From positions 1 through 36,992 of the IMG/VR virus record IMGVR_UViG_3300028844_003113: 36,992 bases of DNA. One strand, written 5' to 3'. How positions within the stretch are numbered: position 1 is the first letter of the stretch; each line of letters opens with the position of its first letter. Shown in pieces: positions 10,421 to 18,734 of the stretch. The stretch is from a virus. Both the position numbers and the translations under genes were made by a program. Below the pieces are notes generated by a model. The model had not been told where the DNA came from. It saw nothing but the letters and a program-made list of their open reading frames with translations, and made no database searches.

Positions 10421-13400
10421 ATGGCTTTTCAAACTGCCGCCGGTTACGGCAATCTTCCTCAGGGTAATTTCACACCAACGATCTACTCTCGTCGCGCTCA
10501 GGTAGCATTCCGCACCAAAAGCGTTATTCAGAGTATCACCAATACGGAATAGTAAAATACTCCCTTCAGGCAGAGATGCCTGTCGAAAATCTAGTGAATT
10601 GCTGGGAAGCCTGAAACGGTAATCAGCAGCCAAGCCCGGAAACGGGAAGGTCCAGAGACTAAAAAGTACAATAAAATAAGTACAGCCCAGTGCTGAAATA
10701 CTTACTCTTTTAGGCGACTATTATGAATAGAAAGAAACGAGGCATCCTTTATGGACTCGCCCTTGGTGATGGACACCTAAGCTACCGTCCCCAAAGAGGG
10801 AGCAACTGTGAGCTGATAGTAGGTCACTCTACTAAGCAGGCAGAGTATATCCATCACAAGGCAGACCTACTACTGAGTGTTACAGGTGGCTCTCGTGCCA
10901 ATATCCGCCCCACTAAGACGTTCCTTAAATCCACAGGGAAGTCCTACAGAGGGCTCAGATTTAGCAAGACCCACAAGTATTTTAACCAGATGCACAGAGT
11001 ACTTTACCCTAAAGGTAAAAAAGTGTATACGCGTAAAATACTAGACTTCCTGACAGAAGAGGGGCTAGCACTCTGGTTTATGGATGATGGTTCTATGAGA
11101 TGTAATAGAAATAAAGAGGGAGAAGTTACCTCTCTTTTTGCAGATATTACTACGCACTGTTCTAAGGAAGAGCTTGAGATTATTCAAGAATACTTCAGGG
11201 AAGAGTGGGGCATAGATGTCAAGGCTTCCAAAAGCAAAGGGGCATGGAATGTAAGGTTTAACACTAAAGCCTGTCATCGCCTAGCCTCTTTTATTTGGCC
11301 GCATATGATTCCTTCTATGGAATATAAGTTACGACACCTAGAAGATTTTGTACTTCGCAAGAGCGCTAGACATCCTCACATGGACATGAAGGATGATGAT
11401 ATAGTCCAGCCTCAATGGAATAAGAACATTGAGAATTAAAAGTTAAATGCTTTTAAGATAATAATCGCGTATTTTGGTGAGATCAAGGATTAACTAGTAG
11501 TCCCCTTGCGAGGGAAACCTGTAAGGAAAATTTGGTGAATTGCTGGGAAGCCTGAGACGGTAATCAGCAGCCAAGCCCGGAAACGGGAAGGTTCAACGAC
11601 CAAGAAGTACAATACTAATCGAGCATGCTTCATGCACTTAGCTCGCATCCAAAAGGAAAATAATGAACAGAAACCAACGAGGCATCCTCTACGGGATGGC
11701 TATTGGAGGTTCTTACCTTCGCCCTCGCAACAGGGATAGAGGTATAAATGTCTGCTTTCTGACAGAGCACTCAGTAGCCCAAAGCGAGTATATTAAGCAT
11801 AAGCGAGATCTTATGCATAGTATCTGCGGGGGCAAGAGACCTGAGATTCACTACAGAGAGAGGCACGACAAAAGAACGGATAAAGTATATAAGAGCCTAA
11901 GCTACAGCAGGACTCTCCTTTACTTTAATCAAATAAGAAAAGTTCTTTACCCCGAAGGTACAAAAACGTATACTCGAAAGATGCTGAACTATCTGACCCC
12001 CCAAGGACTAGCTCTTTGGTACATGGATGATGGCTCCATCAGGGGGTATACGAGCAAGAAGACAGGGAATATTTCCAGTATTCAAATGTCCCTTGCTACT
12101 CATTGTTCTAAAGAAGAAGCAGAGATTATCCAAACTTACTTTAAGGAGGTTTGGGGAGTTGATGCCCGGATTCATAAGAGGAAGAGTAATGGTCATATCC
12201 ATTACAATATCTGTATGAATACTAAGGCAGCACACCGCTATGCTTCTTTCATTTGGCCTTATATTATTCCCTCTATGGAATATAAAATGAGGTTCCTAGA
12301 AGACTTTGTACTTCACACGAGCGCCAAACCCCTGTCAAATGGGGATGATATGGTCTAATCTTAATGGAAATAAACATTAAGAATTAGGACTTAAATAGTC
12401 CTAAGGTAATAAAAACCCTTTATAATCAAAGGGTTATGTACGGTGATACCGTTAAGATCATTAAAGAACCTAGAGAAGCATTGGGTCCTGTTATAGTAAT
12501 ATAATAGTAAACATCTTGTGAATTGCTGGGAACCTGTAAAATGGTAATCAGCAGCCAAGCCCGGAAACGGGAAGGTTCAACGACTAGGTATATACTTAAA
12601 CTCAAGTAGTAGCCCTCGTGGCCAACGAAAGGACGATAAAATTGAATAAGAGAGATAGGGGCATACTTTACGGCCTTGCTCTAGGAGACGGATGCTTGCA
12701 TATAAGTAAGGACCAATCCCCTAAGACCGCTAGATTAGTTATAGGTCACGGACCTAAGCAGCTAGAATACTTAGAGGAGAAGAAAAGACTTCTGCATTCT
12801 ACCCTAGGGGGCAAACCTCCTTCCTTGTATACTTACAGGTCAAAAAATAAGAAGACAGGTAAGGTCTATACAAATCATCAGCTCTACAAGAATCATAAGT
12901 ATTTTAGGCAGATGCACAGAGTACTTTATAGTACGGGCAAGAAGAAGATAACTGAGAAGGTCCTAGGATATTTGACGGACTACAGTTTAGCTCTTCTTTT
13001 CATGGATGATGGGTCAGGAAAGGTCTTGAAGAATAAGGTAGGGATACCCACTTCAGCGACTACGAGGATAGCCACTTACTGCACAGAGGAAGAAGCCCTT
13101 CTCTGGAGAAAGTGGTTTGAGGACAAGTACTCTATATCCCCTAAGTTTGATGTGGACAAGAGATCACTACCCCTAGGATACTCCCTTAGATTCAATACAA
13201 CAGCCTCGAAAGAGCTTGTGTCAATTATCGCCCCCTATATAGTGCCTTGCTTAAAGTACAAGATACAGCACATAGATAAGTATATGCCCAAGAGCGCAAG
13301 ACACCCTTCAGGGGTGAAGATATAGTCTAATCTTTGTGGAAACGCAAAGGAAGGTGTAATTAAAAAGACCTTCGTAATACTAAGGATGTTTCAGTAAGCC

Positions 13401-14125
13401 CGTACGCTCGTGGTACGCAGGTTACTGCTCAGGATCTTGATGATGATGAAATTACACTGACAGTCGATCAAGCGAACTTCTTTGCATTCAAAGTGGATGA
13501 CATTGAAGCTAAACATGCCCATAACAATTGGACCCAGATGGCGTCTAGTCGTGCAGGCTACAAACTAGCAAATGGCATGGATACTAACATCCTTGCTTAT
13601 ATTGACTCCCAAATCCCTGCTGCTAATCAGCTAGGTACGGAAGCTTCTCAGGCCACTATCGCTAATTCTGGTAGCCCTGATTATACTCCACTGAGTATTC
13701 TGAATCGTTGTAAGCGTTTGCTCGACGAAGCAGATGTTCCTGAAGAAGGCCGTTGGTTCGTAGCCGATCCATTCTTCTGGGAGCTGATTGGTGATGAAGA
13801 CAGTAACCTCCTGAGCGCGGACTATGCTGAAAAAGGCATCTTGCGTAACGGTCGTGTTGCAGATGGTAACATCCGTGGCTTCAACGTCTTCATGTCCAAC
13901 AACTTGGGCACCGTAGGTACGGGCTCTACCGCAACTTCTGGTACTAATGGCACTTGGTTGCTGGCTGGTCATATTTCTGCTGTAGCTTCTGCTGAGCAGA
14001 TCAATAAGACCGAAACTTATCGTGACCCAGACAGCTTTGCTGATGTCGTCCGAGGTTTGCATGTGTTTGGTCGTAAGGCCCTTCGCACCGAAGCTCTCGT
14101 TGGCGCAAACTGGCGCACGGCGTAG
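10421..14125 (+). CDS. major capsid protein, split by three group I introns
   Basis: Proposed join: 10421-10549, 11470-11490, 12439-12471, 13385-14125, giving 307 residues. Exon 1 encodes 43 residues ending SITNTE and would be followed at once by TAG if unspliced. Exon 2 encodes YFGEIKD, exon 3 YGDTVKIIKEP, and exon 4 starts DVSVSPYARGTQVTAQDL. The joined text reads like podoviral HK97-fold coat proteins, which carry ITNTxYFGEI, GDTVxIIKEP and VDxANYFAFKVDDI in this order. Frame is kept at every junction, all junctions fall between codons, and introns 2 and 3 obey the exon-ends-U, intron-ends-G rule. GGAGATAACA precedes the ATG. It follows scaffold as expected. Splicing is predicted, not shown. 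Confidence 0.92.
10550..11469 (+). ncRNA. group I intron 1 of the capsid gene
   Basis: A 920-nt self-splicing-type intron. P1 pairs exon GGA plus intron TA with TA-C-TCC (10558-10563). The splice-site pair is A10549.C10560 instead of U.G. P10: intron AAAATA (10554-10559) is complementary to exon-2 TATTTT (11470-11475). P2 is CAGGCA-GAGA-TGCCTG (10567-10582). The core is at 10594-10660 with P4 (TGCTG/CAGCA) and the P6 hairpin CCCG-GAAA-CGGG. P7 pairs GACT (10657-10660) with AGTC (11403-11406). P9 is CTCAATG/CATTGAG (11411-11433). The endonuclease gene lies in the P8 region between the two P7 strands. Confidence 0.9.
10723..11439 (+). CDS. LAGLIDADG homing endonuclease, intron 1
   Basis: A 238-residue intron-encoded endonuclease. 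It has two LAGLIDADG-type motifs, as in the LAGLIDADG_2 style: ILYGLALGDG (8-17, acidic D16) and LALWFMDDG (115-123, acidic D122). Both are intact. Such enzymes cut long target sites in intronless alleles to copy the intron by repair. The ribosome site is weak (AGG then CGACTATTATG), perhaps keeping expression low or needing RNA structure. The 3' end of the gene runs through the intron's P7 and P9 strands, so its last 15 or so codons also have to fold as ribozyme RNA. It is homologous along its length to the enzymes of introns 2 and 3. Confidence 0.93.
   Translation: MNRKKRGILYGLALGDGHLSYRPQRGSNCELIVGHSTKQAEYIHHKADLLLSVTGGSRANIRPTKTFLKSTGKSYRGLRFSKTHKYFNQMHRVLYPKGKKVYTRKILDFLTEEGLALWFMDDGSMRCNRNKEGEVTSLFADITTHCSKEELEIIQEYFREEWGIDVKASKSKGAWNVRFNTKACHRLASFIWPHMIPSMEYKLRHLEDFVLRKSARHPHMDMKDDDIVQPQWNKNIEN
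11470..11490 (+). other. micro-exon 2 of the capsid gene (21 nt)
   Basis: Seven codons, YFGEIKD, flanked upstream by an intron ending in G (11469) and downstream by an intron whose P1 pairs exon GGAU plus intron TA with TAGTCC. The exon's last T (11490) forms the conserved U.G pair with G11500. It keeps frame with exons 1 and 3 and restores a motif conserved in coat proteins of this type. Confidence 0.87.
11491..12438 (+). ncRNA. group I intron 2 of the capsid gene
   Basis: A 948-nt intron. P1: exon GGAT (11487-11490) plus TA pairs with TAGTCC (11498-11503), with a canonical U.G. P10: GTA (11497-11499) with exon-3 TAC. The core at 11535-11601 is nearly identical to intron 1, including CCCG-GAAA-CGGG. 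P7 is GACC (11598-11601) with GGTC (12352-12355), a compensatory change relative to GACT/AGTC in introns 1 and 3. P9 CTTAATG/CATTAAG (12360-12381) also covaries with intron 1. Further hairpins are TAGGACT/AGTCCTA (12385-12403) and AACCCTTT/AAAGGGTT near the 3' end. It ends in G (12438). Confidence 0.92.
11663..12358 (+). CDS. LAGLIDADG homing endonuclease, intron 2, first motif degenerate
   Basis: A 231-residue paralogue of the intron 1 enzyme, with a good ribosome site (AAAAGGAAAATA before ATG). Motif 2 is intact: LALWYMDDG at 116-124. Motif 1 reads ILYGMAIGGS (8-17): the GDG that carries the catalytic Asp is GGS here, so the first metal-binding acid is missing. The rest of the protein remains open and conserved (KTYTRKMLNYLT, ATHCSKEEAEIIQ, SFIWPYIIPSMEYKMRFLEDFVL). 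It may be a nickase, a maturase-like splicing helper or a newly dead enzyme. The gene ends exactly at the P7 3' strand: codons DDMV and the stop form the S element. Confidence 0.9.
   Translation: MNRNQRGILYGMAIGGSYLRPRNRDRGINVCFLTEHSVAQSEYIKHKRDLMHSICGGKRPEIHYRERHDKRTDKVYKSLSYSRTLLYFNQIRKVLYPEGTKTYTRKMLNYLTPQGLALWYMDDGSIRGYTSKKTGNISSIQMSLATHCSKEEAEIIQTYFKEVWGVDARIHKRKSNGHIHYNICMNTKAAHRYASFIWPYIIPSMEYKMRFLEDFVLHTSAKPLSNGDDMV
12439..12471 (+). other. micro-exon 3 of the capsid gene (33 nt)
   Basis: Eleven codons, YGDTVKIIKEP, preceded by intron 2 ending in G (12438). The last T (12471) pairs as U.G with G12483 in the P1 helix of intron 3 (ACCU with GGGT). The peptide is the conserved coat-protein segment expected between YFGEI and the PYARGTQ motif. 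Confidence 0.87.
12472..13384 (+). ncRNA. group I intron 3 of the capsid gene
   Basis: A 913-nt intron. P1: exon ACCT (12468-12471) plus AG pairs with TTGGGT, with U.G at 12471/12483. P10: CATT (12479-12482) pairs with exon-4 GATG (13385-13388). The core is at 12518-12585 and shares the P4/P6 sequence of the other two. P7 is GACT (12582-12585) with AGTC (13324-13327). P9 is CTTTGTG-GAAA-CGCAAAG (13332-13349), and GAAGGT pairs with ACCTTC just before the end. The last base is G (13384). Confidence 0.92.
12642..13325 (+). CDS. LAGLIDADG homing endonuclease, intron 3
   Basis: A 227-residue enzyme. I choose the TTG at 12642 as start: AAGGA lies eight bases upstream and the protein then begins MNKRDRGILYG, in register with MNRKKRGILYG of intron 1. 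A GTG at 12618 in the same frame has no such support. Both motifs are intact: ILYGLALGDG (8-17, D16) and LALLFMDDG (116-124, D123). It is the most diverged of the three paralogues, for example TRIATYCTEEEALLW and YIVPCLKYKIQHIDKY. Its TAG stop lies in the P7 3' strand of the intron. Confidence 0.9.
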   Translation: MNKRDRGILYGLALGDGCLHISKDQSPKTARLVIGHGPKQLEYLEEKKRLLHSTLGGKPPSLYTYRSKNKKTGKVYTNHQLYKNHKYFRQMHRVLYSTGKKKITEKVLGYLTDYSLALLFMDDGSGKVLKNKVGIPTSATTRIATYCTEEEALLWRKWFEDKYSISPKFDVDKRSLPLGYSLRFNTTASKELVSIIAPYIVPCLKYKIQHIDKYMPKSARHPSGVKI

Positions 14126-14141
14126 GAAAGGATAGTATACT

Positions 14142-14624
14142 ATGGCTACAACTAATGACCTTACGCCTTCTGGCGAAGTAACCACTGCTGGTTCCTTCCC
14201 AGGTCGTCGTGGCACTAATGGTTTCGTGGTTCTGAAGCGTCGAGTAACTGCCGCAGAATGCGTAGCTGCCACTGGCACTGCGTTGATTGCTGCTGATACT
14301 TTTCAGATCATCAACCTTCCTGCCTACCATTATGTCCTTGCTGGCATCGTAGATTTTACGACTGCTGACACGGGCACTACCCTCACTGTTGATCTAGGTA
14401 TTGCCGCTGGTGATACTTTGCTAGATGGTGGCGATGGTACTACGGCAGGTATCCCTGTTGTTGGTACGAATGGTAATTTGGCAGCTAGTGCTTTTGTTAG
14501 TGCTACTGCAGATACGATTGATCTAACGATCAAGACTATCTCGGCTGCTAATGATGACTGGGTTGCTGAAGTCTCGGTAATTTGTGCTGATATTAGTGCA
14601 GACTACCACCCAGACTCTGCGTAA
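14142..14624 (+). CDS. probable head decoration or minor capsid protein
   Basis: A 160-residue protein right after the capsid gene, with AAAGGA upstream of its ATG. It is rich in Thr, Ala, Gly and Val, with no Cys clusters or charged helices, consistent with a mostly beta virion protein. The sequence has a short flexible N-terminus (ATTNDLTPSGEVTTAG) and then strand-like stretches. Position and composition suggest a capsid-stabilising or decoration protein; no specific family is recognised. Codon use here is similar to capsid exon 4, as expected for a highly expressed virion gene. Confidence 0.65.
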   Translation: MATTNDLTPSGEVTTAGSFPGRRGTNGFVVLKRRVTAAECVAATGTALIAADTFQIINLPAYHYVLAGIVDFTTADTGTTLTVDLGIAAGDTLLDGGDGTTAGIPVVGTNGNLAASAFVSATADTIDLTIKTISAANDDWVAEVSVICADISADYHPDSA

Positions 14625-14643
14625 CTGACGTAACATAGGTATT

Positions 14644-14674
14644 GAGGGAGGATGGCACAAACGCTGTCCCCCTC
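14644..14674 (+). other. strong hairpin downstream of capsid/decoration genes
   Basis: GAGGGAGGATGGC pairs with GCTGTCCCCCTC across a 6-nt loop (ACAAAC), with one bulged A and two G.U pairs. It starts 20 nt after the stop at 14624. There is no T run after it, so it may stabilise the abundant capsid mRNA or attenuate transcription rather than terminate it. The rest of the gap to 14790 shows nothing else clear. Confidence 0.5.
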
Positions 14675-14790
14675 GTACTTACCTTATGAATGCTAAGGGA
14701 TATCCATAAACGTATCCACTATTATCCATAAGGTAAACATATCTGACATTCATGTCTACATCATAAACATAAAGGAAGGACCCTCTAGAA

Positions 14791-15525
14791 ATGGGCAGTA
14801 CATACTTATCCCTAACTAATAAAGTCCTCCGCCGCTTGAATGAAGTAGAGCTTACTTCAGGAACATTCGCCTCTGCTTCTGGCTTCCATGCCGTAGCAAA
14901 GGACTCTGTCGTAGATGCTATTGGAGACATCCAACAAGCAGAGATAGAGTGGCCTTTCAATCACTCCACAGATACTATTACCTTAGCTACAGATGGCACT
15001 ACTGAATATGCTTTGGCGGCAGACGCTCAAGCTATTGATTGGGAGTCCTTCCATATGACTAAGGAAGTCCCTACTTCTGATGTAGAGGAAAAGTATCTCT
15101 CCCTCCTCCCTTATGACGAATACCTAAAGTATGGACTTAGAGCTAAGAACGCTAACTATGACTCTACTGGTGCAGGCAAGCCTGACTTCGTTGTCCCCTC
15201 TCAGAACTATAAAGCGATATTCTACCCCGGATACTCTGACGCTGCATATACTGTGGATTACGAGTATTGGGGTATTCCTACGGAAGTATCCGCCCATGAC
15301 GATACTACCACTATCCCTTCCAGGTTCGATTACATAATCGTCCAACGAGCTTTATGGGCTTGTTATATGTTCCATGATAATGACCAGCAGGCTACTATCG
15401 CCCGATCAGCGTGGCAAGAAGGTCTCCTACACATGAGGACTCTCCTTATTAATAAGACTGAGAGAGTATTCGATATGAGAGATGCTGGAAGGTCTTCTTC
15501 CACTAATGTACTAAGAGTCAGCTAA
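14791..15525 (+). CDS. head-tail adaptor / tail tubular protein A-like
   Basis: A 244-residue protein in the position of the T7 gp11-type tail tube A or adaptor, after capsid and before the nozzle. It has a helical N-terminus (LSLTNKVLRRLNEVEL), a segment with DAIGDIQQAEIEWPF, a strand-rich middle, and a helical end (YIIVQRALWACYMFHDNDQQ, then ARSAWQEGLLHMRTLLI), the pattern of podoviral adaptor proteins. It would form a ring under the portal and join it to the nozzle. AAGGAAGGA precedes the ATG. It abuts the next gene without a gap. Confidence 0.78.
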   Translation: MGSTYLSLTNKVLRRLNEVELTSGTFASASGFHAVAKDSVVDAIGDIQQAEIEWPFNHSTDTITLATDGTTEYALAADAQAIDWESFHMTKEVPTSDVEEKYLSLLPYDEYLKYGLRAKNANYDSTGAGKPDFVVPSQNYKAIFYPGYSDAAYTVDYEYWGIPTEVSAHDDTTTIPSRFDYIIVQRALWACYMFHDNDQQATIARSAWQEGLLHMRTLLINKTERVFDMRDAGRSSSTNVLRVS

Positions 15526-17046
15526 ATGCCTAGCTTACAGAAGATAAAGAATATAGAAGCCTCTGGAGGAATCATTGAGTCCACCACCTTGTTAAGTCAA
15601 GGAGAGAGGGCTCCGGGAACTCTCATTGCAGGGCAGAACATTGAAGGCGCTGTAGGACGAGGCTACCGGAGAATTAACGGCTCTGAGAAGTACTCAGCTA
15701 CGGCCCTTACAGGTACAGGAGCTGTGCTAGGCACCTTCCCTTTTAACTCAGGTGTTGTAGGTTGCCGTGAAGGCAATGTGGAGTTTGGTACAGGCACTAC
15801 TTGGACCTCTATTGTTACAGGACGAACGGCTGCTAAATATAGAGCTGCAAGATACCACTGGGTGCAAGATTCTATCGTGTTGGTTAATGGAACTGACTAC
15901 CCTATCAGGTATCAAGCAGATACGACTTACACAGAATTAACAGATGCTCCTCAAGGAGCTTTCGCAGTGGCTCCCTTTAAGCGGCATATGTGCTTCCTAA
16001 AAGGAACTAGCCTGTTTATCTCTTCTGCGGGGGACGAGACTGATTTCACCCTAGCTGCTACAGAGATTAACGTAGGGTTTACAATAAATCAGTTAGCAGT
16101 ATGGCGTGAAGCCCTTTATGTATTCGGCCCTAATAATATTGTTAAACTTATAGGGTCTAACCAAACTGACTGGGAGCTAGTTCCTGTAACAGGCCGCATA
16201 GGCTGCATCGCCCCAGACACTGTACAAGAAGTCGGTAGTGACATCTTCTTCCTCGCACAGGATGGTATGCGCTCTCTGGCTGGTACAGATAAGATCGGGG
16301 ATATTGACCTTGATACTACTACCCGAGGTATTGAAGCCAGGATTAATGAAGTTGTTGAAGCAGTAGGAACGGATGAAATATCTTCCATCGTAATCCCCTC
16401 CAAGTCCCAGTATAGGATCTTTTGGGATTCTTCTGCAACTTCTGCTGAAGTCTCTAAAGGACTCCTAGGGCATCTTACTGCAGAGTCTCTCCAGCTTCCT
16501 GAACTACAGACGGAATGGGAATGGTTTGACCTGAGAGGCTTCAAGGTAGCTTGTTCTGATTGGGACTATGATGGGATTAATGAAGTTGTAGTTTATGGGG
16601 GCTTCGATGGCTATGTCTATGAGTTTGAACAAGGCATCACTGTTGATGGAACAGCTCTAACATCTACAATGACATTTCCTCAATGGTATTATGGAGAGAC
16701 AGAGCGCAGGAAAGTCCTCCATAGTATTAAAGTCTATTTACGGCTTGAGCAGGGTGCTGATATAACTCTCTCAAACTCTCTTGACCTTGACGCACTCGGT
16801 ATTCCACAGCCCCCTTCCATTAACTTAGGGGATTACTTATCAGCAGCACCCTCAGTTTGGGGAGATGGATCTACATGGGGGGATGGGTCTACATGGGCAC
16901 AATCTGCCTACGATCAGACAGTAGAAGTTAATCTCATTGGCTCCTGCTTCTTTCACGCTATAACCCTCACGAGTTCAGGGGTAACAGACTCCCCTTACAT
17001 CGTGGATGGCTTTACAGTACAATATACACCTAAAGGACTACAATAA
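15526..17046 (+). CDS. tail nozzle / tail tubular protein B-like
   Basis: A 506-residue beta-rich protein following the adaptor. Repeated short strands with aromatic and glycine turns (FLAQDGMRSLAGTDKIG, YVFGPNNIVKLIGSN) suggest a beta-propeller, as found in tail nozzles and DNA-stabilisation proteins of podoviruses (T7 gp12 and P22 gp10 types). A doubled WGDGSTWGDGSTW motif and the ending YIVDGFTVQYTPKGLQ are also seen. It would form the tail tip that closes the channel. Its stop overlaps the ATG of the fibre gene (TAATG). Confidence 0.78.
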   Translation: MPSLQKIKNIEASGGIIESTTLLSQGERAPGTLIAGQNIEGAVGRGYRRINGSEKYSATALTGTGAVLGTFPFNSGVVGCREGNVEFGTGTTWTSIVTGRTAAKYRAARYHWVQDSIVLVNGTDYPIRYQADTTYTELTDAPQGAFAVAPFKRHMCFLKGTSLFISSAGDETDFTLAATEINVGFTINQLAVWREALYVFGPNNIVKLIGSNQTDWELVPVTGRIGCIAPDTVQEVGSDIFFLAQDGMRSLAGTDKIGDIDLDTTTRGIEARINEVVEAVGTDEISSIVIPSKSQYRIFWDSSATSAEVSKGLLGHLTAESLQLPELQTEWEWFDLRGFKVACSDWDYDGINEVVVYGGFDGYVYEFEQGITVDGTALTSTMTFPQWYYGETERRKVLHSIKVYLRLEQGADITLSNSLDLDALGIPQPPSINLGDYLSAAPSVWGDGSTWGDGSTWAQSAYDQTVEVNLIGSCFFHAITLTSSGVTDSPYIVDGFTVQYTPKGLQ

Positions 17047-18734
17047 TGGCTGGATACACACGGCAAGAAGCGGCTAACATCGTTACAGCTAATGCTATCG
17101 AAGCTTCTCAGATTAATAATGAGCTCAACGCTATTGATGCTGCCTTCCACGCTACTACAGGGCATCAGCATGATGGGACTACAGGGGATGCTCCTAAAGT
17201 CGTCCTAACGACTTCTGTATCGGGTACTCTCCCTATAGCTAATGGCGGCACTGCAGCAACTACTGCTGCCGCTGCCAGAACCGCTTTGGGTGTTGCTATT
17301 GGAAGTGACGTACAGGCTTATGATTCAGGTCTTACAGACATCTTGGCGTTAACGCCTACAGACAGTAACTTCATAGTAGGTAATGGCTCTACTTGGGTAG
17401 CTGAGACAGGGGCTACTGTTAGAACTTCCTTGGGCGTTCCAAGTACTGCTGAAGCTCTCCTCGTGGCTAACAATCTGAGTGATATTGGTACAGCCGCTAC
17501 TGCACGAACTAATTTAGGGTTGGCTATTGGAACGGATGTTCAGGCCTATCATGATAAACTAGCAGACATCTCAGGATTGTCCCCTTCTTCAGGAGAGTTC
17601 ATTAAGTGGGACGGGGCTAATTTCATAGCGTCTACCTCAGGCATCGGCACAGGAGACCTCCTTGCTGCTAATAACCTTTCTGATGTTGCCGCAGCAGCCA
17701 CTGCTAGAACTAACCTAGGTCTTGCTATCGGAACCGATGTTCAAGCTTATGATGCTCAACTCGCAGATATCGCTGCATTAGCTGTCACTGATAGTAACTT
17801 CATAGTTGGTAATGGTAGTACTTGGGTAGCTGAATCCGGAGCCACCGCAAGGACTTCTTTAGGTGTTCCGGGGTTGCCTGATGATAATTCTTGGACAGGC
17901 GCACATGATTGGTCTGTCCCTAGTTCTGAGACAGGGTTGACAGTAGACCTTACTGGAACGACTAGTCCTACAGGAGTTAAGCTTACTTACTCAGGATCTG
18001 CTACAGAAATGCAACCGATTCGTATAGAACACACGACAGGGGCTGCATACAGTCAAGGTAATGGGCAAGAAGGTGCTATAACAATCACCTCAGATGAAGC
18101 AGGAGCTAATTGGCTAGGTTCGTCTACAGCAGGTATAACTTGCCACTGGGATGGGGCGAGTCCCGCAGATAGCGATACTTTTCAAATCCTAAGAGTAACA
18201 GAGGGGGCAGGAGCAGCCCATCATGTCTATGGGCGTATAGACTACCTAATGTCGGATGTCACTAACGCCACTGAGGACGGTTACTGGCGTTTTGCCTCTA
18301 CTGTTGCTGGGACAATAGACACTGACGCTATGAAGATCGGCGCAGGCGTAACTCTAGGAGCTCCTACAGGGGGTTTCCAAGGAGCAGGTACTCTGAATGC
18401 TCTTGGTGTCTATGACGATAGTGTCCTCTTAACAGATTTCGTGGCAGATGCTTACAATGGCGAACTCGATGAGTCTCGCCTGAAGTTCTACGACAGTATC
18501 TGGCATGGTAATACGAATAATCCTGCCCGAGACTTCTCAGACAGAGCCCAGGAGAGTCTTGATATGAAGACTTTCACAGATACTTTCGTAGAAACCGGGA
18601 GCCTACCTGCTATGCCTACTCGTGAAGAATGGCTCCAGAATAAATACAGCGTAGGTGAATTAGTAAACTCCCTCTGGGAGACTGTGGAAGTACTCACCTT
18701 GCACATCAAGACTCTTAATGAGAGGACTGCCTAA
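17046..18734 (+). CDS. tail fibre protein with internal repeats
   Basis: A 562-residue fibre-like protein. The N-terminus (AANIVTANAIEASQINNELN) resembles tail-attachment segments. Residues from about 60 to 280 hold repeats: ANGGTAATTAAAARTALGV, then variants of LGLAIGTDVQAYDAQLADI and two near-identical copies of TDSNFIVGNGSTWVAE. Such repeats form slender trimeric shafts. The middle is strand-rich. The C-terminus, after MPTREEWLQNKYSVGELVN, is helical (ETVEVLTLHIKTLNERTA) and may trimerise. It would reach for the receptor or connect to the spike proteins coded further on. It overlaps the next gene by one base. Confidence 0.85.
   Translation: MAGYTRQEAANIVTANAIEASQINNELNAIDAAFHATTGHQHDGTTGDAPKVVLTTSVSGTLPIANGGTAATTAAAARTALGVAIGSDVQAYDSGLTDILALTPTDSNFIVGNGSTWVAETGATVRTSLGVPSTAEALLVANNLSDIGTAATARTNLGLAIGTDVQAYHDKLADISGLSPSSGEFIKWDGANFIASTSGIGTGDLLAANNLSDVAAAATARTNLGLAIGTDVQAYDAQLADIAALAVTDSNFIVGNGSTWVAESGATARTSLGVPGLPDDNSWTGAHDWSVPSSETGLTVDLTGTTSPTGVKLTYSGSATEMQPIRIEHTTGAAYSQGNGQEGAITITSDEAGANWLGSSTAGITCHWDGASPADSDTFQILRVTEGAGAAHHVYGRIDYLMSDVTNATEDGYWRFASTVAGTIDTDAMKIGAGVTLGAPTGGFQGAGTLNALGVYDDSVLLTDFVADAYNGELDESRLKFYDSIWHGNTNNPARDFSDRAQESLDMKTFTDTFVETGSLPAMPTREEWLQNKYSVGELVNSLWETVEVLTLHIKTLNERTA

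Follow-up and report, generated by a model that had tools for sequence, protein, structure and literature searches.

Three predicted group I introns within 54 nt of the major capsid protein gene of an HMO-2011-type phage

Introduction

Can one phage structural gene be interrupted three times within 54 nt of coding sequence and still yield a single protein? The question is raised by a 36,992-base virus record (IMG/VR IMGVR_UViG_3300028844_003113; the whole of this stretch is called the window), in which an initial annotation had proposed that one coat protein is coded in four pieces, set between three group I cores. The comparative analysis presented here strongly supports an affirmative answer, with a rough probability of 0.93: this appears to be the major capsid protein (MCP) gene of an HMO-2011-like phage, carrying three mobile group I introns within 54 nt and spliced to a full MCP message.

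One coat protein in four exons

The four exons (Table 1) join into an open frame of 307 aa, which aligns without gaps at all three junctions to the uninterrupted MCPs of dozens of contigs, where the corresponding stretch reads ITN[ST]D-YFGEI..-.GD[TS]VKIIKEP-E[IV][ST]V..Y.RG. All four exon lengths are divisible by three and therefore every intron sits between codons. Over its full length, the spliced protein matches the major head protein family phrog_267 (8.5e-62) and PDB 8e16 (2.6e-17), with 40-47 % identity to phage records, the highest value (47 %) being to phage CRP-345. By these similarities, the window gene is that of an HMO-2011-type / P22-like major capsid protein. The proposal of one coat protein in four pieces is borne out in its exon coordinates by the gap-free spliced alignment, and the boundaries expected earlier (exons of 129, 21, 33 and 741 nt, with 2781 nt of intron in total) agree with the sequence.

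Table 1. Features of the interrupted MCP gene, in positions of the window
Feature	Coordinates	Strand	Length	Description
MCP exon 1	10421..10549	+	129 nt	Residues 1-43, ...SITNTE; gap-free against uninterrupted MCPs; own-genome match
Group I intron 1, site 1	10550..11469	+	920 nt	RF00028 42.1 bits, E 1.3e-8
Guide of intron 1	10554..10563	+		AAAAUA (P10, exon 2 UAUUUU); C opposite exon A10549; UCC (P1, GGA)
P7 5' strand of intron 1	10654..10661	+		AGAGACUA; pairs with 11400-11407 (UAUAGUCC), inside the end of HEG1; covariation
HEG1, LAGLIDADG_2	10723..11439	+	238 aa	PF03161 5.6e-32; tree
MCP exon 2 (micro-exon)	11470..11490	+	21 nt	YFGEIKD; residues 44-48 near-invariant (132 MCPs)
Group I intron 2, site 2	11491..12438	+	948 nt	RF00028 42.9 bits, E 8e-9
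Guide of intron 2	11497..11503	+		GUA (P10, exon 3 UAC); G (U.G with exon); UCC (P1, GGA)
HEG2, LAGLIDADG_2	11663..12358	+	231 aa	PF03161 6.5e-32; motif-1 Asp replaced, GGSYL for GDGHL
MCP exon 3 (micro-exon)	12439..12471	+	33 nt	YGDTVKIIKEP
Group I intron 3, site 3	12472..13384	+	913 nt	RF00028 64.7 bits, E 2.3e-15
Guide of intron 3	12478..12486	+		GCAUU (P10, GAUGU); G (U.G); GGU (P1, ACC)
HEG3, LAGLIDADG_2	12642..13325	+	227 aa	Probable TTG start; PF03161 1.6e-22 (scan from GTG 12618)
MCP exon 4	13385..14125	+	741 nt	Including stop; DVSVSPYARG... to ...NWRTA; Phage_capsid_4 1.5e-7

The gene order around the window MCP (terminase, portal, scaffold-like, MCP) is normal. A second intact capsid gene elsewhere had been named as the observation that would speak against a split gene; none turned up among the 36,992 bases of the record, although the record may be incomplete, given that the genomes of marine isolates with this type of MCP measure about 53-56 kb. 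Rfam matches to sR1 and sR14 in exon 4 were below threshold and are put down to chance. Downstream, a tail-fibre-like ORF (17046-18734) contains an internal repeat, with 17265-17440 about 71 % identical to 17694-17869.

Among 132 MCPs, the residues of the interrupted stretch (44-61) have an entropy of 0.38, against an average of 0.73, and rank 69 of 289 among 18-residue windows. Conservation alone was therefore rejected as the cause of the intron cluster, this not being the most conserved window of that size.

Three group I cores with covarying helices

The Rfam scan finds all three of the group I cores predicted before, and no further group I match in the window; intron 3 lies above the RF00028 gathering score of 50 and introns 1 and 2 below it. 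As had been stated, all insertions fall within 54 nt of coding sequence, the sum of exons 2 and 3 (21 + 33 nt). The P7 pairs are present in 26 of 26 aligned introns, with A-U in 16, G-C in 10 and no mixed combinations (Fisher p 1.9e-7, which overstates independence because the counts include related sequences). At another P7 pair, intron 2 alone of the 26 has C-G in place of U-A, both sides being changed. P9 is complementary in every one of the 26 introns, by way of 22 distinct stems, and the last base of introns 1, 2 and 3 is G.

An extra hairpin (AACCCTTT...AAAGGGTT) is present in intron 2 at 12410-12438, just 5' of the 3' splice site, and is absent from the other aligned introns. A group I intron on the minus strand of another contig (L085:560-1800) has a 42-44-nt core segment identical to that of introns 2 and 3. 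It was set aside: the core is common to them, but this intron lies in the gene of an unrelated phage and has a different ORF.

These cores also bear on whether the pieces might be brought together in some other way, as inteins, by translational bypassing, or as separate subunits. In-frame stops come directly after exons 1 and 2, and 10 codons past exon 3; the intervening ORFs have their own starts, and pieces of 7 and 11 residues are too small to be subunits. With full group I cores and covarying P7 and P9, these explanations can hardly be credited, and the pieces were ruled out as separate genes, inteins or the products of bypassing on the strength of the immediate stops and the covarying ribozyme cores.

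Guide sequences and the room within the micro-exons

Each predicted intron has a guide that pairs with the end of the preceding exon (P1) and the start of the following one (P10). The contiguous P10 pairs number seven in intron 1, three in intron 2 and seven in intron 3, and both P1 and P2 of intron 2 are present in its minimum-energy fold. Guides match their own exons better than foreign ones, with a mean of 2.9 of four P1 pairs against 1.4, and 4.5 of five P10 pairs against 2.3. At site 3, guide and exon have changed in step: P1 is ACCU/GGGU in the window and GCCU/GGGC in the relative L088, and P10 is GAUGU/GCAUU in the window and GAAGU/ACUUU in L088.

Three introns so close together had been thought to need ordered or independent folding across very short exons. 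The micro-exons are truly 21 and 33 nt; the worry itself is eased, however, as the segments used by neighbouring introns do not overlap. Of the 21 nt of exon 2, the 6-7 at the 5' end serve P10 of intron 1 and the ~4 at the 3' end serve P1 of intron 2, while in exon 3 ~3 nt serve P10 of intron 2 and the last ~4 nt serve P1 of intron 3. The micro-exons thus leave space for both helices, and independent folding of the three introns is possible. Because of the stops behind exons 1, 2 and 3, ribosomes would be expected to halt ahead of the ribozyme cores, and such a halt may protect ribozyme folding, as work on phage T4 suggests.

The similarity of the guides could nonetheless lead to mixed splicing, with partial skipping of exon 2, of exon 3 or of the two together; the resulting MCP variants, lacking 7, 11 or 18 residues, would stay in frame, as each exon length is divisible by three. 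Introns 1 and 2 have identical P1 pairing (GGA/UCC), the pair at position -1 being their one difference, and there are precedents for skipping in Twort orf142 and in SIOphi, with a 23-nt exon skipped (PMC10136302) and an internal exon skipped (PMC11878797). P10 of introns 1 and 3, though, prefers the proper exon, with five of five pairs against two to three elsewhere, and many of the residues that would be lost are highly conserved, which makes it unlikely that the shortened proteins would be of use. Some mixed splicing is a tentative possibility, and full joining of the four exons is the preferred outcome.

An unusual 5' splice site in intron 1

In 28 of the 29 introns scored there is a U at the last exon position and a G at the intron end, a count that is partly by construction because the choice of boundaries favoured this combination; even so, intron 1 fails it. 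Its exon base at -1 is A10549 and the opposing guide base is C10560, the sole departure from U among the 29, whereas introns 2 and 3 have U at -1 in a U.G pair. At the same place the relative L227 has U.G, so both partners differ from those of window intron 1. The last codon of exon 1 accordingly encodes Glu where 130 of 132 MCPs have Asp. When the three window guides and exons are compared in all combinations (3 x 3), introns 1 and 2 are distinguishable at the 5' splice site by the -1 pair only, and but for this pair each could use the site of the other.

Other boundaries for intron 1 were considered. Shifts of -2 to +2 nt yield none that combines U at -1 with a terminal G; a +1 shift leaves the RNA product unchanged, but makes U the last intron base. 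A cut after U10550 with G11467 as the last base would insert a serine and break P10.

The A x C opposition, set against the 28 other introns, might mark a dead or dying allele, in which the 5' splice-site pair of intron 1 is broken in a defective phage or decaying prophage, and the loss of the motif aspartate in HEG2 could be read in the same way. Yet each of the four exons has an open frame and a conserved sequence, no lesion is present in exon 4, the structural genes nearby are undamaged, and intron 1 has a long P10 of seven pairs; loss of endonuclease activity leaves splicing unaffected. A dead allele is therefore improbable.

It is more improbable still that the gene was put together in error, either by stitching the introns of different strains into one gene or by miscalling a base at the intron 1 splice site. 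Similar introns in one gene or across strains are a known assembly hazard, and exon 1 with the 5' part of intron 1 is covered by the window contig only. From 10937 to 17788, however, the IMG/VR contig L084, which stops short of exon 1, matches all 6,852 bases at 100 % identity, a span that includes exons 2, 3 and 4 and both introns between them (a separate sample is not implied by this). A miscall would require two coordinated errors, at A10549 and C10560, and a relative with two introns exists (L139). The A x C opposition itself may be adaptive, a decay that is tolerated, or an artefact of the one assembly. Taken as real, intron 1 allows the strictness of the U.G rule at the 5' splice site to be tested.

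Endonuclease genes of the introns

The expected LAGLIDADG gene is present in each intron, all three ORFs matching PF03161 (1.6e-22 to 5.6e-32; 80.7-111.5 bits against a cut-off of 25). The start of HEG3 is most likely TTG 12642 and not GTG 12618, because the MNR.RGILYG of other endonucleases aligns there. HEG1 and HEG3 have an acidic residue in both LAGLIDADG motifs. In motif 1 of HEG2 there is a Gly, found in this protein only, at the position occupied by Asp in 35 of 36 family members; the second motif (MDDG) is kept. On these residues, HEG2 may be inactive as a nuclease.

The endonuclease tree follows the insertion site. A single clade (100/99) unites all of the MCP endonucleases and sets them off from the other sampled LAGLIDADG_2 proteins; within it, those of site 3 are again one clade (100/98), HEG3 being 59-67 % identical to most site-3 endonucleases of other phages. 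HEG2 groups with the main site-1 lineage (95/97), at the base of the clade, where the inner fork has support of 78/78. Outside the main site-1 group are the site-1 endonucleases of L283 and L139, and the distant L285.

Occupation of the three sites in related phages

The intron-bearing relatives were found through endonuclease searches, in which alignments of two endonucleases were needed; exact-peptide scans with one endonuclease recovered almost no relatives, and a search of Planctomycetota gave just the contig known before and one weak match. Site 3 is filled at exactly the same position in L088 and about 20 IMG/VR contigs (L123-L138, L140, L236-L239 and L243). About 15 have an intron at site 1, exactly or 1 nt beside (L141, L158, L227, L240-L242, L244, L246, L248-L253 and L283). 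Sites 1 and 3 are both filled in L139, the exon between them being 53-54 nt. Among the fetched relatives, an intron at site 2 is present only in the window phage and the identical contig L084. A further 157 MCP loci, fetched by capsid similarity and including some duplicates of one contig, are uninterrupted.

On the MCP tree, which was built quickly and has some long branches, no fewer than 11 changes are required to account for intron presence at site 1, and no fewer than 13 at site 3. Such patchy presence is typical of what would be expected of mobile introns. Together with the site-structured endonuclease tree it gives an indirect indication of homing, so that cutting by the endonucleases and spread to intron-free alleles may be inferred from the sequences.

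Several other features were seen in the relatives. Site-1 introns occupy two positions 1 nt apart, GAY^TAY (L141 and L227) and GAYT^AY (L139, L158, L240 and L248-L252), and in both cases the guide matches its own position. Two contigs (L283:3897-4170 and L133:5849-6144) have another insertion, about 270-295 nt long and lacking an endonuclease gene, near MCP residues 96-100; the two positions are close, not identical, and group I core motifs can be recognized (GTGAATTGCTGG, GGTTCAACGACTA, TATAGTC). At the position equivalent to site 1 (ANTD^YEGEV), a distant capsid-like gene (L285:2700-3900; MAGPTRDASHPDYSS...) seems to contain an intron and an endonuclease related to these. L088 (NVWB01000161.1) is a 44-kb contig in a Blastopirellula MAG bin, in which relatives of the window phage's structural genes are arranged as in that phage; this points tentatively to either a planctomycete host or contamination of the bin.

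Origin of intron 2 and the proposed pathway

The sequence at site 2 (AAGGAT^TAC) is like that at site 1 of L227 (ACGGAT^TAT), and the two introns also begin alike (TAACTAGTAGTCCC in intron 2, TAACGTAATAGTCCC in the L227 intron). Most likely, intron 2 is a site-1-type intron that relocated 21 nt downstream to a look-alike target, GGAN^TA. A relocation from the site-1 type is probable because HEG2 groups with the site-1 endonucleases. That it ran from site 1 to site 2 is somewhat favoured by these comparisons; the position of HEG2 at the base of the clade (78/78 at the inner fork) leaves the direction unproven. A longer history can be imagined, in which intron 2 arose by the 21-nt jump and the two siblings then escaped mis-splicing through a change in nothing but the -1 pair of intron 1, where A x C took the place of U.G (in the exon, Asp became Glu; in the guide, C replaced G), with intron 1 working without the U.G wobble. 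This is rather unlikely.

In the preferred reading, the transcript would lose all three introns by the two-step guanosine reaction, each core aligning its exons through P1 and P10, and the exons of 129, 21, 33 and 741 nt would be joined into a 307-codon MCP message; this splicing is inferred from the sequence. Each LAGLIDADG product would cut, or would once have cut, intron-free alleles and so spread its own intron. Introns 1 and 3 would be site-specific lineages moving among related phages, and intron 2 a site-1-type intron moved by 21 nt to its look-alike target.

Comparison with known systems

Phage structural genes with several introns and a tiny exon, and fragmented MCP genes, are already known (PMC10136302; PMC7886860); no papers on these introns in HMO-2011-type phages were found among the open-licence literature. 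The tail tube gene orf142 of Staphylococcus phage Twort has three group I introns, a 23-nt exon and exon skipping (PMC10136302; PMC11878797). Like the window, it is a phage structural gene with three group I introns and a micro-exon between them, in Twort between two very similar introns. It differs in being a tail gene for which skipping has been demonstrated, whereas the window gene is an MCP gene with two adjacent micro-exons and a LAGLIDADG gene in each intron. In the zeta crAss-like phage OLRF01000054, the MCP is in five fragments and three of the four gaps have group I intron-type domains; this phage belongs to a group unrelated to the window, and the parts of the report consulted do not describe exact junctions, guide pairing or exon lengths (PMC7886860).

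In the Cluster J mycobacteriophage LittleE, too, the MCP gene is interrupted; the insert is probably a group I intron, ~820 nt long and containing a LAGLIDADG-like ORF, and its splicing was proven by RT-PCR and N-terminal sequencing (PMC3706429). Unlike the window, LittleE has one intron, with its ORF on the opposite strand and the canonical U at -1. The MEP401 phages were rejected as a precedent for MCP introns, the possible intron mentioned being in the DNA polymerase (PMC10580990). In the 23S rRNA of Coxiella, a 34-nt exon lies between two group I introns and skipping has been reported (PMC10136302); the very short exon is similar, but the gene is an rRNA gene and the two introns are of different subgroups.

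A further comparison is with the relatives of the window phage (L088, L123-L142, L227, L236-L253 and L283), which have in common with it the gene, sites 1 and 3, the endonuclease clade and the core, and differ in having at most two of sites 1-3 filled and site 2 empty. The gene family thereby presents stages in the colonization of one essential gene, with zero, one, two or three introns within 54 nt, and its endonuclease lineages, tied to each site, make testable how introns reach new sites. There is also a practical consequence: annotation will miss or shorten the coat protein of phages split in this way. What is added here to the known cases is the pair of adjacent micro-exons, a gene family with its sites filling up, and the probable 21-nt relocation; this MCP stretch looks like a hot spot that has been colonized site by site.
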